Both the position numbers and the translations under genes were made by a program. From the NCBI RefSeq assembly GCF_000374085.1, contig NZ_KB893500.1:1-64000 (forward strand): a stretch of DNA of 64,000 bases, given 5' to 3'. Each line of letters starts with the position of its first letter. Positions within the stretch are counted from its first letter, which is position 1. The DNA comes from Spirosoma spitsbergense DSM 19989. Its GTDB lineage: Bacteria > Bacteroidota > Bacteroidia > Cytophagales > Spirosomataceae. Positions 3,393 through 47,001 of the stretch are shown piece by piece. The notes below the pieces were generated by a model. The model saw nothing but the letters and a program-made list of their open reading frames with translations, searched no databases and was not told the DNA's origin.

Positions 3393-3429
3393 ACGGATTC
3401 CGTACCTTAAAAGCGGAATCCGTTTTTTA
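3393..3429 (+). terminator. Rho-independent terminator after the MFS gene
   Basis: A 10-bp perfect stem, ACGGATTCCG (3393-3402) and CGGAATCCGT (3414-3423), with an 11-nt loop, is followed by a run of T residues to 3428. Confidence 0.85.
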
Positions 3430-3452
3430 TTTCCCTAAAACCATTTACGCCA

Positions 3453-4379
3453 ATGAATTTTGTACTTGTACTGTTCCTGTTAGTCATTATCATCATATAC
3501 CTGTCTGTCGTTATCGTGCAGCAGGGCACGGTGGCAGTCATTACCGTTTTCGGAAAATATTCCCGGGTCATGACGCCGGGTTTAAATTTCAAGATTCCCT
3601 TTATTGAGTTCATCTACCGGCGCATTTCGATTCAGAATCGCTCCGTCGAGTTGGCGTTTCAGGCCATCACGGCCGATCAGGCTAATGTCAACTTCAAGGC
3701 AATGCTGGTCTATTCAGTGCTGAATCAGGCGGAGGAAACGATTAAAAATGTAGCCTTCAAGTTCATCGACGAAGCGTCGTTTATGCAGGCCCTGATTCGA
3801 ACTATCGAAGGGTCCATCCGTAGTTTTGTGGCCACCAAACGGCAGGCCGAAATCCTGTCGCTCCGTTCCGAAATCATTGAACACGTTAAATCACAGCTCG
3901 ATGTGCTGCTCGAAACCTGGGGCTATCACCTCACCGATCTGCAACTGAATGATATTGCGTTCGATGAAGTGATTATGCGGTCGATGGCGCAGGTAGTGGC
4001 CTCCTCCAACCTGAAAGCAGCCGCCGAAAACGAAGGCCAGGCACTGCTCATTACTAAAACCAAGGCTGCCCAGGCCGACGGTAATGCCATTCAGATTTCG
4101 GCCGAAGCCGAGAAGACAGCTTCGCAGCTAAGAGGACAGGGGGTGGCCCTGTTCCGCGAAGAAGTGGCCAGGGGTATGGCCGAATCGGCCAAAGTGATGA
4201 ATGAAGCCAATCTGGATGCGTCCCTGATTTTATTCTCTATCTGGACCGAAGCCATCAAGCATTTTGCTGAAAACGGTAAGGGCAACGTCATTTTCCTGGA
4301 CGGTTCGACCGAAGGAATGCAGAAGACAATGAACCAACTGCTGGCGGTTGAAAAAATGAACCGTACCAGCGAGCAGTAA
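3453..4379 (+). CDS. SPFH/band 7 domain protein (slipin/stomatin-like)
   Basis: 308 residues. One N-terminal hydrophobic segment (about residues 2-22) is followed by an SPFH domain beginning QQGTVAVITVFGKYSRVMTP. It continues through the typical VNFKAMLVYSV and helical region rich in Ala, Glu and Gln (residues 180-260). The family forms oligomeric membrane scaffolds in the inner membrane and influences membrane microdomains and protease access. No NfeD-type partner gene is adjacent, which separates it from slipin/NfeD operons. The start is the first ATG, directly after the preceding terminator. Confidence 0.85.
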   Translation: MNFVLVLFLLVIIIIYLSVVIVQQGTVAVITVFGKYSRVMTPGLNFKIPFIEFIYRRISIQNRSVELAFQAITADQANVNFKAMLVYSVLNQAEETIKNVAFKFIDEASFMQALIRTIEGSIRSFVATKRQAEILSLRSEIIEHVKSQLDVLLETWGYHLTDLQLNDIAFDEVIMRSMAQVVASSNLKAAAENEGQALLITKTKAAQADGNAIQISAEAEKTASQLRGQGVALFREEVARGMAESAKVMNEANLDASLILFSIWTEAIKHFAENGKGNVIFLDGSTEGMQKTMNQLLAVEKMNRTSEQ

Positions 4380-43273: not shown

Positions 43274-44749
43274 ATGTTACATCTGGTTCGGCAGGCGCAG
43301 GCTCATCCGAAAAATACCGCCATCATCTCCGATGGACAGTCGTACACCTATAACCAGTTGCTGGAGCAGTCTGACCATTTTGCGCAACGGTTGCTGAATG
43401 GTCAGGCCGACCTGGCCGAAGCGCGAGTTGCTTTTATGGTTATGCCCGGTTTCGATTACGTTCGGGTGCAGTGGGGTATCTGGCGGGCGGGTGGCATGGC
43501 AGTACCGCTTTGCCTGACCTATCCGCCCGCTTCACTCGACTACGTATTATCTGACACGGGGGCCGATATTGTCGTGGCTTCGGCTCGTTATACAACCATC
43601 ATCAAACCCCTGGTCGAAGCGCGGCAGCTTCGGTTTATTGAACTGGAGCAGTTGGATGAATACGACGCCATAATTCTGCCCGACCTGATGCCGGAGCGGA
43701 AGGCAATGATCCTGTACACAAGCGGCACGACGAGTTTACCCAAAGGCGTGGTAACGACCCACGCTAACCTTGATGCCCAGATAACTTCACTCGTAACGGC
43801 CTGGGAATGGCAACCCACCGACCATATTCTGTGTGTACTGCCACTCCACCACGTGCATGGTATCATAAACGTGATTGGATGTGCCCTGTGGGCGGGTGCC
43901 TGCTGTGAGTTTTTACCTGAATTTTCGGCGGCCGATGTATTTGCTGCTTTTCAGCGGGGAACGATCAACCTTTTCATGGCCGTACCGACTATTTATTTTA
44001 AGCTAATTACCTACTGGGAGCGTTTGCACACACCGGATCAGGAAGCCCTGACCGCCGTGATGCGCCCCTTCCGGCTGATGGTTTCCGGCTCGGCCGCGTT
44101 GCCCGTTACGGTGATGGAAAAATGGGAACGGGTAAGCGGACAGATTTTGCTCGAACGATACGGCATGACCGAAATCGGGATGGCTATCAGCAATCCCTAC
44201 CGGGGTAAACGCGTTCCCGGCCACATCGGCCAACCGCTGGCGGGTGTGGGTATTCGCCTGGTCGATGACTACGACCAACCCGTTGCCGATAGCCAGCCGG
44301 GAGAGATTCAGGTGCAGGGGCCAACCGTGTTTCTGGACTACTGGCAACGCCCGCAGGCCACGGCCGACGCCTTTACCGATGACGGCTGGTTCCGTACCGG
44401 CGACGTGGCCGTGGTAGATGACGGAAGTTATAAAATTCTGGGCCGCAGTTCTATCGACATCATCAAGTCGGGCGGGTACAAACTATCGGCACTGGAAATT
44501 GAAGAGGTGCTGCGTACCCACCCGGCCATTGACGACTGCGGAGTGATTGCCCTGCCCGATGAGGAATGGGGCGAAACGGTAGCCGCCGTGCTGGTAGCCC
44601 TGCACCCCATTGACCTGGCCGAACTGAATCAATGGATACGGACGCAGTTGCCGCCGTATAAAGTGCCCCGGCAGTACCGGGTAGTGGCCGAATTGCCCCG
44701 GAACGCAATGGGCAAAGTGACAAAAAACGACCTCAAACAACTTTTCTGA
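43274..44749 (+). CDS. Acyl-CoA synthetase, AMP-forming (malonyl-CoA synthetase-like)
   Basis: 491 residues of the ANL superfamily. The phosphate loop is ILYTSGTTSLPKGVVTTHANL. Further motifs are LLERYGMTEIGMAISNPYRG, TGDVAVVDDGSYKILGRSSIDIIKSGGYKLSALEIEE and the C-terminal catalytic Lys in PRNAMGKVTKNDL. The RYGMTEIGM motif and overall length resemble malonyl-CoA synthetase MatB. The substrate is a carboxylic acid, not otherwise determined. Its stop lies 3 bp before a 41-residue membrane protein and that gene overlaps the symporter, so uptake and activation of the same carboxylate is plausible. Confidence 0.82.
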   Translation: MLHLVRQAQAHPKNTAIISDGQSYTYNQLLEQSDHFAQRLLNGQADLAEARVAFMVMPGFDYVRVQWGIWRAGGMAVPLCLTYPPASLDYVLSDTGADIVVASARYTTIIKPLVEARQLRFIELEQLDEYDAIILPDLMPERKAMILYTSGTTSLPKGVVTTHANLDAQITSLVTAWEWQPTDHILCVLPLHHVHGIINVIGCALWAGACCEFLPEFSAADVFAAFQRGTINLFMAVPTIYFKLITYWERLHTPDQEALTAVMRPFRLMVSGSAALPVTVMEKWERVSGQILLERYGMTEIGMAISNPYRGKRVPGHIGQPLAGVGIRLVDDYDQPVADSQPGEIQVQGPTVFLDYWQRPQATADAFTDDGWFRTGDVAVVDDGSYKILGRSSIDIIKSGGYKLSALEIEEVLRTHPAIDDCGVIALPDEEWGETVAAVLVALHPIDLAELNQWIRTQLPPYKVPRQYRVVAELPRNAMGKVTKNDLKQLF

Positions 44750-44752
44750 CCG

Positions 44753-44878
44753 ATGGATTTCCTAACCGCCTTCCCGTACTGGGCCATTCTGGTCATCATG
44801 ATTGTCAATGCCATTGCTGTACAGTTTATGAAAATAGACGTGCAGGATGACGAAAAGGAAAAAGAACCCACCAAATGA
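44753..44878 (+). CDS. 41-residue membrane protein, likely symporter accessory subunit
   Basis: An ATG at 44753 opens 41 codons ending in TGA at 44876-44878. The stop overlaps the symporter ATG at 44875. The peptide starts MDFLTAFPYWAILVIMIVNA, has one membrane helix (about residues 8-27) and ends in an acidic and lysine-rich tail (VQDDEKEKEPTK). The position and shape match the small accessory proteins that precede some sodium:solute symporters. It is too short for ordinary gene thresholds. The reading is supported by the 3-bp gap before it and the 4-bp overlap after it. Confidence 0.75.
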   Translation: MDFLTAFPYWAILVIMIVNAIAVQFMKIDVQDDEKEKEPTK

Positions 44879-46422
44879 ACTACCTCACTAACCACGCCAC
44901 CGTGTTACTATGCATGGTGGTTTATCTGGGCCTGATTATCACGCTCGGCTGGTACCTGCAACGCCAGTCGGCCAAAACCGTTGGCGAATATTACGTGGCC
45001 AACCGCCGGATACCGGGCTGGGTGGTTTCGCTGGCTTTCTTCTCGACGTTTATCAGCACCAACACCTACATCGGGCAGGCGGGTGAATCGTTTCGGTACG
45101 GCCTGTCGTGGACGTGGGTGGGGCTATTCTGGGCCATTTTCTGCGTTGTGTCGTGGATGATTCTTGGTCCCCGGATGCGGAATCAGAGTATCCGGCTCAA
45201 GTCGTTTACGGTGCCGGACTATTTTCAGCTTCGCTACCAGAGTCCGCTTTCCCGGAGTATCCGGGTGCTGTCGGCCTTCATTATCCTGTTTGCTACTGTC
45301 TGGTACATGACCGGTATTGCCAAGGGAATCGCGCATCTGCTGCAATCGGTTCTCGACATACCGTACATGTATGGTGCGGGTTTTATGCTGTTTTTCACCT
45401 GCTTCTATACCATTTCGGGGGGTATGTACGGCATTATGTGGACGGATGCAGTACAGGGCATTCTGATGTTTGCGGTGGCGATTCTAATGCTGGCCCTGCC
45501 CTTTGTGTACGTGGGCGGGTACGATGTGCTGATGGCCAAAATTGCTTACGTCGATCATGTGTCTAAAAAAGGAACGCCCATTGGCAGTGGGTTAGTTAGT
45601 TTCGGACAGTTGACCTCGTTTCTGTACATTGCCGGGATTGGGCTGTCGGTGGGCATGAAACAGATTTCAGAACCCAAGCTCCTCATTCGGTTCTATACCG
45701 TGAAGGACCGGAAAGGCATGAAGTTCGCTATGACCTGGACCCCCATTTTTATGGGCGTATCGCTGGTGTGCGTCATGGGGCTGGGTGCGCTGGTACATGG
45801 TATGGTTTCGACGGAAGAAGCCGCCTATCTGGTCAACAATACCGACGAGGTAGTGGGCTTCATGCTGAATAAGTTCAATAGTCCGCTCATCAGTGGTATC
45901 TGCCTGATGGGACTTTTTGCGGCTGGTATGGCGGCTCTGGCGTCGGTGACACTTGTAGTGGGTACCACACTGGTTAAGGATATCTGGAACGTGTGGCGAC
46001 CCATGCCCGTTGAGCGCATCATTCCCCGAACCAAGCTGGTCATGCTGCTGTACTGCGTTCTCGTATATTACTTCACGTTATTTCCGCCGGCGGGCGTGGT
46101 AGAGCTGTCGGCCTTTGCGGGTTCAGTGTACGTAGCCAGTTTTCTGCCCACTATTTTCGGAGGGCTGTATTTTCGCTGGGGTACGGATTTAGGGTCGGTG
46201 GCGTCGATGATAACGGGTATTGTGGTCAACATCATCTGGCGGTTTGGCGTGCGACCCAATTATGAATCAATGGCCGATGTACACGAGGTTTTCCCCGCGT
46301 TTATCGCTTCGTTTGTGGTCTACGTTTTTGCCAGCCTGCTTACGGCCAACCGCAAACCCAGTCCTGACCATCTGCACGTTGTGTTCGGTACGGAGCCAGT
46401 TACTATTTTATCAAGTAGCTGA
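44875..46422 (+). CDS. Sodium:solute symporter (SSS family)
   Basis: 515 residues with about 13 membrane helices. The family start LGWYLQRQSAKTVGEYYVANRRIPGW and the motif FFSTFISTNTYIGQAGESFRYGLSW are visible, as is the later FAAGMAALASVTLVVGTTLVKDIW. It brings in a solute with sodium. The gene is coupled by a 4-bp overlap to the small membrane protein, itself next to an acyl-CoA synthetase. A carboxylate substrate is inferred. Confidence 0.88.
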   Translation: MNYLTNHATVLLCMVVYLGLIITLGWYLQRQSAKTVGEYYVANRRIPGWVVSLAFFSTFISTNTYIGQAGESFRYGLSWTWVGLFWAIFCVVSWMILGPRMRNQSIRLKSFTVPDYFQLRYQSPLSRSIRVLSAFIILFATVWYMTGIAKGIAHLLQSVLDIPYMYGAGFMLFFTCFYTISGGMYGIMWTDAVQGILMFAVAILMLALPFVYVGGYDVLMAKIAYVDHVSKKGTPIGSGLVSFGQLTSFLYIAGIGLSVGMKQISEPKLLIRFYTVKDRKGMKFAMTWTPIFMGVSLVCVMGLGALVHGMVSTEEAAYLVNNTDEVVGFMLNKFNSPLISGICLMGLFAAGMAALASVTLVVGTTLVKDIWNVWRPMPVERIIPRTKLVMLLYCVLVYYFTLFPPAGVVELSAFAGSVYVASFLPTIFGGLYFRWGTDLGSVASMITGIVVNIIWRFGVRPNYESMADVHEVFPAFIASFVVYVFASLLTANRKPSPDHLHVVFGTEPVTILSSS

Positions 46423-46479: not shown

Positions 46480-47001
46480 ATGCTGATAAAAGATTTTATT
46501 ATCGGTTTCGTTATAGGCATATCATGCACCATAACGACCTATCCAATGCGCCCCCCACTCTCATTTCTGTGTTTCTTTTATGGCTGGGTTTCCCTATCGG
46601 CAATTCCAGCCATATCGCAAAGCCAGCCTTCCAGCCGGGAGCCGACTTACAAGGTGTTGGTGTATGAGGACGGAGTACCCATCAATCCTGAACGAGGTGC
46701 ATCGGTTTTGTCTAAGCTAGTTAAATTAAGGGTAGTACTTACGGATGAAAGTCTCGAAAAATACCCCTATCTAAAGCCTGCTGTGATCGTAAAAAATACG
46801 TATGAATACCTGATTCGAAATGGCAGACGGATAATGATATATCCAGGTGGGGCGTCGTTGTATTTTTCACTTCTCAACGCTCAGGCCGGCGACCAGATTT
46901 TGATTGAGTCAGCTGATTTACGTGTAGAGACCAGGGATGGCATGACCCGTAAATTGACCCGTAAAATGGTTTGCGTACTTCCAATCTATGAGGAAAAATA
47001 G
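46480..47001 (+). CDS. Secreted or membrane-anchored protein of unknown function
   Basis: 173 residues if started at the ATG at 46480, which has a good ribosome binding site (AAGGGAAGGAAAA). An internal ATG at 46546 (MRPPLSFLCFFYGWVSLSA) would give a simpler signal peptide ending near AIPAISQ. The remaining 120 residues contain VLVYEDGVPINPERGASVLSKLV and a basic C-terminal part, RDGMTRKLTRKMV. I do not recognise a family. It lies between the symporter and the DMT transporter on the same strand. Confidence 0.55.
   Translation: MLIKDFIIGFVIGISCTITTYPMRPPLSFLCFFYGWVSLSAIPAISQSQPSSREPTYKVLVYEDGVPINPERGASVLSKLVKLRVVLTDESLEKYPYLKPAVIVKNTYEYLIRNGRRIMIYPGGASLYFSLLNAQAGDQILIESADLRVETRDGMTRKLTRKMVCVLPIYEEK

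Follow-up and report, generated by a model that had tools for sequence, protein, structure and literature searches.

Small membrane proteins are encoded beside SSS transporters in the YjcH-ActP, YhdT-PanF and DUF4212 pairs, whose small partners are larger, two-helix proteins. The 33-position NCBIfam model NF045580 (symport_access), which we take to be the NCBI "symporter small accessory protein", describes a very short protein whose name points to an accessory role beside a symporter. A single-helix partner of an SSS-family transporter is MAP17, described as the auxiliary subunit of human SGLT2, with a helix that contacts TM13 of the transporter and a suggested role in localisation and folding (PMC10803289). 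Malonate import by a small membrane subunit together with a larger carrier is represented by the malonate/sodium symporter MadL/MadM (PF03817, PF03818), and MadLM, MdcF and MatC have each been tested with MatB in E. coli as malonate carriers (PMC12303837).

The locus described here lies in a 64,000-nucleotide stretch of the genome of Spirosoma spitsbergense DSM 19989 (contig NZ_KB893500.1; hereafter the window). On its + strand an acyl-CoA ligase of 491 residues, a probable malonyl-CoA synthetase (43274..44749), is followed by a 41-residue single-helix membrane protein that we propose to be a symporter micro-subunit (44753..44878) and by an SSS-family symporter of 515 residues, the probable malonate importer (44875..46422). 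From sequence comparison we consider it likely that this cassette joins a malonyl-CoA synthetase to an SSS malonate symporter with its own micro-subunit, and that the latter two replace the MadM and MadL of relatives. The symporter would import malonate and the ligase would trap it on entry as malonyl-CoA. The small protein would serve the symporter as a dedicated subunit: its helix, in which one Asn and one Val are invariant, would pack against the transporter within the membrane and help it to fold, stay stable or cycle. The SSS protein and its micro-subunit would do the job done by MadM and MadL in relatives. A more ambitious version, in which this is a new two-part malonate carrier with an obligate subunit of 30–44 residues, repeatedly swapped with MadLM and in Spirosoma perhaps moved from sodium to proton coupling with the loss of the sodium-site serines, is doubtful.

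The cassette resembles MadL/MadM in having a small membrane subunit and a larger carrier, the same ligase neighbour and the proposed same substrate, but MadL has about 120 residues against 30–44 for the micro-subunit across its family, and the carrier in the window is an SSS protein. It follows the same ligase-plus-transporter logic as MatB with MatC, MadLM or MdcF, although here the transporter is an SSS protein with a micro-subunit, and the ligase differs at three residues of the MatB group. No YjcH, YhdT or DUF4212 family appeared among the Pfam and NCBIfam matches of the window and family proteins. NF045580 was matched by none of the 21 members of the window family at E ≤ 1 (cut-off 35 bits), and it had no match in the own genome in a search in which 1 of 14 control genomes was positive. 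MAP17 is eukaryotic and its resemblance to the window protein is one of role only; by this analogy, the helix of the small protein most probably lies against the symporter, much like that of MAP17 on SGLT2. Small SSS partners are thus already known, NF045580 by name and MAP17, and what is new here is the micro-subunit family together with a probable malonate importer. Among the literature matches listed, in a search that lay mostly outside subscription journals, no SSS malonate carrier and no such peptide was described as judged by title or the start of the abstract, and the same search, with the same reach, yielded no literature on a small membrane accessory partner of a solute sodium symporter of this sort.

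The small ORF had been picked out from the DNA letters between the ligase and the symporter, and it proved to lie where it had been placed, with an ATG at 44753, a TGA ending at 44878 and a product of 41 residues (MDFLTAFPYWAILVIMIVNAIAVQFMKIDVQDDEKEKEPTK). The ligase stop codon ends at 44749, leaving a 3-bp gap, and the symporter ATG at 44875 overlaps the end of the small ORF as ATGA. Tight coupling on both sides, as the original prediction had it, therefore holds in the window but is no general rule. The gap after the ligase is 2–3 bp in 8 of 9 Spirosoma, whereas the four-base overlap with the symporter is found in four of the nine, the remaining five having 70–117 bp between the two genes. 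Across all loci the spacing to the symporter runs from overlap up to 279 bp, and in one genome, G836, the two genes are unlinked. The single predicted membrane helix is borne out by the one hydrophobic stretch of the protein (19-residue Kyte-Doolittle maximum of 2.06) and by an AlphaFold2 model with one helix at residues 3–28 (mean pLDDT of 75.6, with 85 and 93 for residue blocks 1–10 and 11–20, and low values in the tail). Because Arg or Lys often follows the helix, the N terminus is predicted to face out and the C terminus in. The acidic tail that had also been proposed (44828..44878, + strand) is mostly acidic, the net charge beyond residue 25 lying between −7 and 0 at 17 of the 18 loci, but it is variable; in the exceptional locus, L024, the charge is +3 and the tail is almost absent.

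An alignment of 21 small-protein sequences (A2) places the conservation in the helix and not in the tail. Residues M1, P8, N19 and V23 do not vary in any of the 21, and F3, F7 and W10 hardly do. M1 and P8 belong to an N-terminal motif, MDFLTAFPYW (codons 44753..44782, + strand), and N19 and V23 to a motif within the helix, N19-A-I-A-V23 (44807..44821, + strand). Base differences between the small genes of nine Spirosoma, counted over the first 32 codons in all pairs of sequences, fall 510 times at third, 143 times at first and 48 times at second codon positions, the pairs not being independent. The small gene of the window differs from that of locus L012 by 11 base changes and no amino-acid change; when the same changes were placed at random in 5,000 runs, a mean of 6.0 amino-acid changes resulted and no run reached 0. 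Such tests covered six of the eight Spirosoma relatives, and each showed fewer amino-acid changes than random placement (P of 0.0052 or less). Taking the codon-position bias and the amino-acid conservation together, we conclude that the small ORF is a real gene that is translated and under purifying selection.

No Pfam or NCBIfam family fits the small protein among the family members searched, and PHROGs returned no family for the window protein. Scattered matches at E values of 0.02–0.65 were taken as chance, each family being matched by one member, with the exception of one NCBIfam model that was matched by two. A profile search of the order (341 genomes) found three Spirosoma, and one of the phylum (395 genomes) returned the own locus and three partial matches with E values of 0.002–0.006. 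These three, two of which contain an internal stop, were rejected as chance without reading their loci.

A contig scan gave 15 symporter loci in Spirosoma, Runella, Imperialibacter, Saprospiraceae, Flavilitoribacter, Lewinella and a Bacteroidia MAG. Of the loci that carry a name, that of Spirosoma luteum is nearest, with 95% symporter identity. In a whole-genome search of relatives, 9 of 59 genomes including the own had the symporter, all of them Spirosoma with 84–95% identity. The 18 distinct loci found through the symporter, at identities down to 62%, all have the small ORF between ligase and symporter (duplicates were counted once, L002, L003, L004, L006, L007 and L009 being the same as L010, L012, L011, L013, L022 and L014, respectively; the ligase of L020 is cut by the contig end). 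In all 24 symporter-bearing genomes the ligase gene is directly followed by the small gene. In 23 of them the symporter gene stands third in the row, and in one it lies elsewhere. The presence of the peptide in all 24 disposes of the objection, raised with the original prediction itself, that it might lack conservation in relatives.

As an independent test, the small-protein profile was run alone against 298 genomes, the order of one Saprospiraceae genome, and gave nine matches: two training loci, six new loci and one judged spurious. The ligase lies upstream in all six new loci and the symporter downstream in five of them, and each matched genome has one copy of the small protein only. The spurious match, in G855 (E of 3.7e-4, profile positions 13–34), contains one internal stop, and neither ligase nor symporter is found in the 4,000 bases fetched for this locus. 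Apart from this weak extra match, the small protein and the symporter (E ≤ 1e-90) occur in an identical 8 of the 298 genomes. The ligase at E ≤ 1e-130 occurs in 37, weaker ligase matches having been left out in 11 of 48 genomes. Among 36 Spirosoma genomes, four of which are 71–84% complete, the small protein is present in nine, the symporter in the same nine and the ligase in 17; this is a completeness count and not an independent test, since profile A1 was partly built from the loci counted. Fisher tests on the co-occurrence tables are extreme, although they ignore shared ancestry, for which the counts are likewise uncorrected. The presence of the small protein tracks the symporter and not the ligase, which supports the proposed role of the protein as an accessory subunit of the symporter.

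The genome with the displaced symporter, G836, keeps all three genes. The ligase and the small gene are on contig C39 (locus L042, small gene at 3416–3538), where the symporter is absent, and the symporter is on contig C50 (L053/L056). No small-protein motif was seen in the 400 bases upstream of this unlinked symporter. G836 is the only such case in the 24, and the small gene stayed with the ligase and not with the symporter.

Relatives without the symporter indicate what the cassette may carry. The 17 ligase-bearing genomes among the 36 Spirosoma divide into nine that have the symporter together with the small protein but lack MadM, and eight with MadL and MadM and neither symporter nor small protein; in all eight, the ligase, MadL and MadM stand in a row. 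The other 19, which lack the ligase, also lack the symporter, the small protein and MadM. No MadM was found in any of the 24 symporter genomes, the own included, and no window protein matched PF03817 or PF03818. Among the 298 genomes of the order, 29 combine the presence of the ligase (E ≤ 1e-130) with the absence of the symporter; MadM is present in 17 of these and absent in 12; it is close to the ligase in 15 of the 29 and away from it in two of the 17. Adding the eight Spirosoma brings the genomes with MadM near the ligase to 23 of the 37 that have the ligase but lack the symporter. MadL and MadM both adjoin the ligase or lie no more than about 2 kb from it in 14 of 20 order loci, a share that is overstated because only the 20 best-scoring of the 29 loci were fetched. 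Within these best-scoring 20 of 29, none contains the small-protein motif or an SSS symporter of the window type, L074 having a distant SSS protein with 18% identity to it. Pfam confirms MadL and MadM in four loci, three from the order and one from Spirosoma. On the best tree of 52 ligases, 46 of which carry a label, the transporter label (SSS or Mad) changes five times, and although several deep forks are weak, this suggests that the transporter beside the ligase has been exchanged more than once. The ligase-MadL-MadM arrangement is present in Spirosoma genome G035, and Spirosoma linguale is reported to grow with malonate as its only source of carbon (PMC3035282). Because the symporter and MadLM swap beside the same ligase, and because key ligase residues are kept (see below), the substrate of the cassette is probably malonate. 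The SSS symporter and its micro-subunit appear to stand in for the classical two-part importer MadLM, and the earlier, broader proposal that the trio imports and activates a carboxylate is thereby both supported and sharpened.

Some of the loci in this survey depart from either arrangement. Six of the 20 order loci (L058, L066, L067, L068, L075 and L076) have the ligase with neither MadLM nor this SSS symporter adjoining; two of these six genomes have MadM elsewhere, and other malonate carriers may be hidden at these loci. The ligase of L082 (G008) contains an in-frame TAG, and two frames are needed to read its MadM, as they are for the ligase of L085 (G016); these may be decaying cassettes or sequencing errors.

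The window ligase matches the AMP-binding family PF00501 (E of 3.7e-69), presumably resembles human ACSF3, and has as its best solved-structure matches the malonyl-CoA ligases 3nyq and 4fuq. We mapped MatB residues (R. palustris numbering) by counting on the alignment of ligases and structures. The equivalents of R299, S277 and M247 are kept in all 18 ligases, and that of H209 in all 17 with data. These four residues are described as group-specific to methylmalonyl-CoA synthetases, with R299, H209 and S277 at the substrate (PMC6122825). Three other residues of the MatB group are changed in all 18, R255 to Lys, F273 to Met and H285 to Met or Leu; R255, through its S. coelicolor counterpart, is said to contact a phosphate of the bound product (PMC6122825). 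The ligase does not reach the cut-off of the NCBIfam malonyl-CoA synthase model PRK07514 (359.1 versus 558 bits). By context and active site it is best called a probable malonyl-CoA synthetase, and not a strict MatB because the equivalents of R255, F273 and H285 are not kept. Malonyl-CoA decarboxylase (PF05292) was matched in 0 of 16 genomes in a search run without a positive control.

The symporter matches PF00474 with an E value of 2.6e-46 (158.7 bits against a gathering score of 22.8), but the cut-off was reached in none of nine NCBIfam SSS models (PutP, PanF, ActP, MctC and others), the best being PutP with 173 against 515.5 bits. A search of two genomes with the symporter gave distant SSS matches only. 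A serine pair at the Na2 site is common in the SSS family and is not required for membership. In SGLT2 this pair is S392 and S393 (PMC10803289). Mapped through an SGLT alignment that is weak in score but colinear, the corresponding pair is Ala-Ala in the window symporter, within LFAAGMAALAS (residues 347–357, 45913–45945; the pair at 45931–45936), and in all nine Spirosoma orthologues, whereas it is Ser-Ser in all 15 orthologues from other genera. This change suggests, as a lead from one split in the tree, that the Spirosoma symporters may use a coupling ion other than Na+.

Given that the ligase is directly followed by the small gene at all 24 loci, at 2–3 bp in 8 of 9 Spirosoma, and that in G836 the small gene sits by the ligase with the symporter on another contig, we wondered whether the small protein might be a membrane anchor or tether that keeps the ligase close to the symporter for activation of malonate on entry, and not a structural subunit of the symporter. 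The low-confidence tail of the model is also what a flexible tail would give. However, 29 of the 37 ligase genomes of the order (E ≤ 1e-130) and 8 of the 17 in Spirosoma have no small protein, the small-protein motif is found in none of the 28 ligase loci fetched from genomes without the small protein, and it is the helix and not the tail that is conserved, L024 being nearly tailless. We regard a tether as unlikely. A leader peptide, or mere translational coupling that sets symporter expression, would account for the tight spacing and the four-base overlap in the window, but it fits poorly with an amino-acid sequence that is kept while divergence gathers at third positions, and with a spacing to the symporter that varies from overlap to 279 bp and is abolished in G836; this explanation seems to us highly improbable.

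The assignment of malonate can be challenged separately, as the cassette might handle another small acid, methylmalonate or another dicarboxylate, with malonate not the main substrate. The ligase lacks three MatB group residues, MatB-type enzymes are also named methylmalonyl-CoA synthetases and accept fluoromalonate according to the sources cited (PMC6122825 and PMC9428585), and no SSS malonate carrier is among the literature matches listed. We nevertheless consider another acid quite unlikely, given that MadM, part of a carrier named for malonate, is near the same ligase in 23 of 37 symporter-less ligase genomes and that S. linguale is reported to grow on malonate (PMC3035282). With a dedicated SSS malonate symporter subunit as the preferred reading, a likely function is obtained for a family of micro-proteins that no Pfam or NCBIfam model describes, and a substrate is proposed for an SSS subfamily without an assigned role. 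The natural swap between MadLM and the SSS protein with its micro-subunit, seen beside one ligase and even inside a single genus, offers a direct way to test what single-helix SSS subunits do, by means of a simple malonyl-CoA assay in E. coli. If the proposal is true, it would add one more malonate importer to those employed for malonyl-CoA engineering.

The genes around the cassette are less constant: of the 15 contig loci, just two, L010 and L012, share proteins with the flanks of the cassette in the window. Upstream, between 34742 and 43189, lie two SSHREAPL-type proteins, which we take to be DUF4331-like, a TPR protein, a short ORF with a hydrophobic start and a TonB-dependent receptor. 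In L010 and L012, too, the TPR and receptor genes precede the ligase, which they do in none of the 13 further contig loci of the comparison. Downstream of the symporter is a 173-residue ORF (46480–47001) with no Pfam family. It appears to be fast-evolving because it is 60% identical to its counterpart in S. luteum (L010), as opposed to 87–95% for its neighbours.
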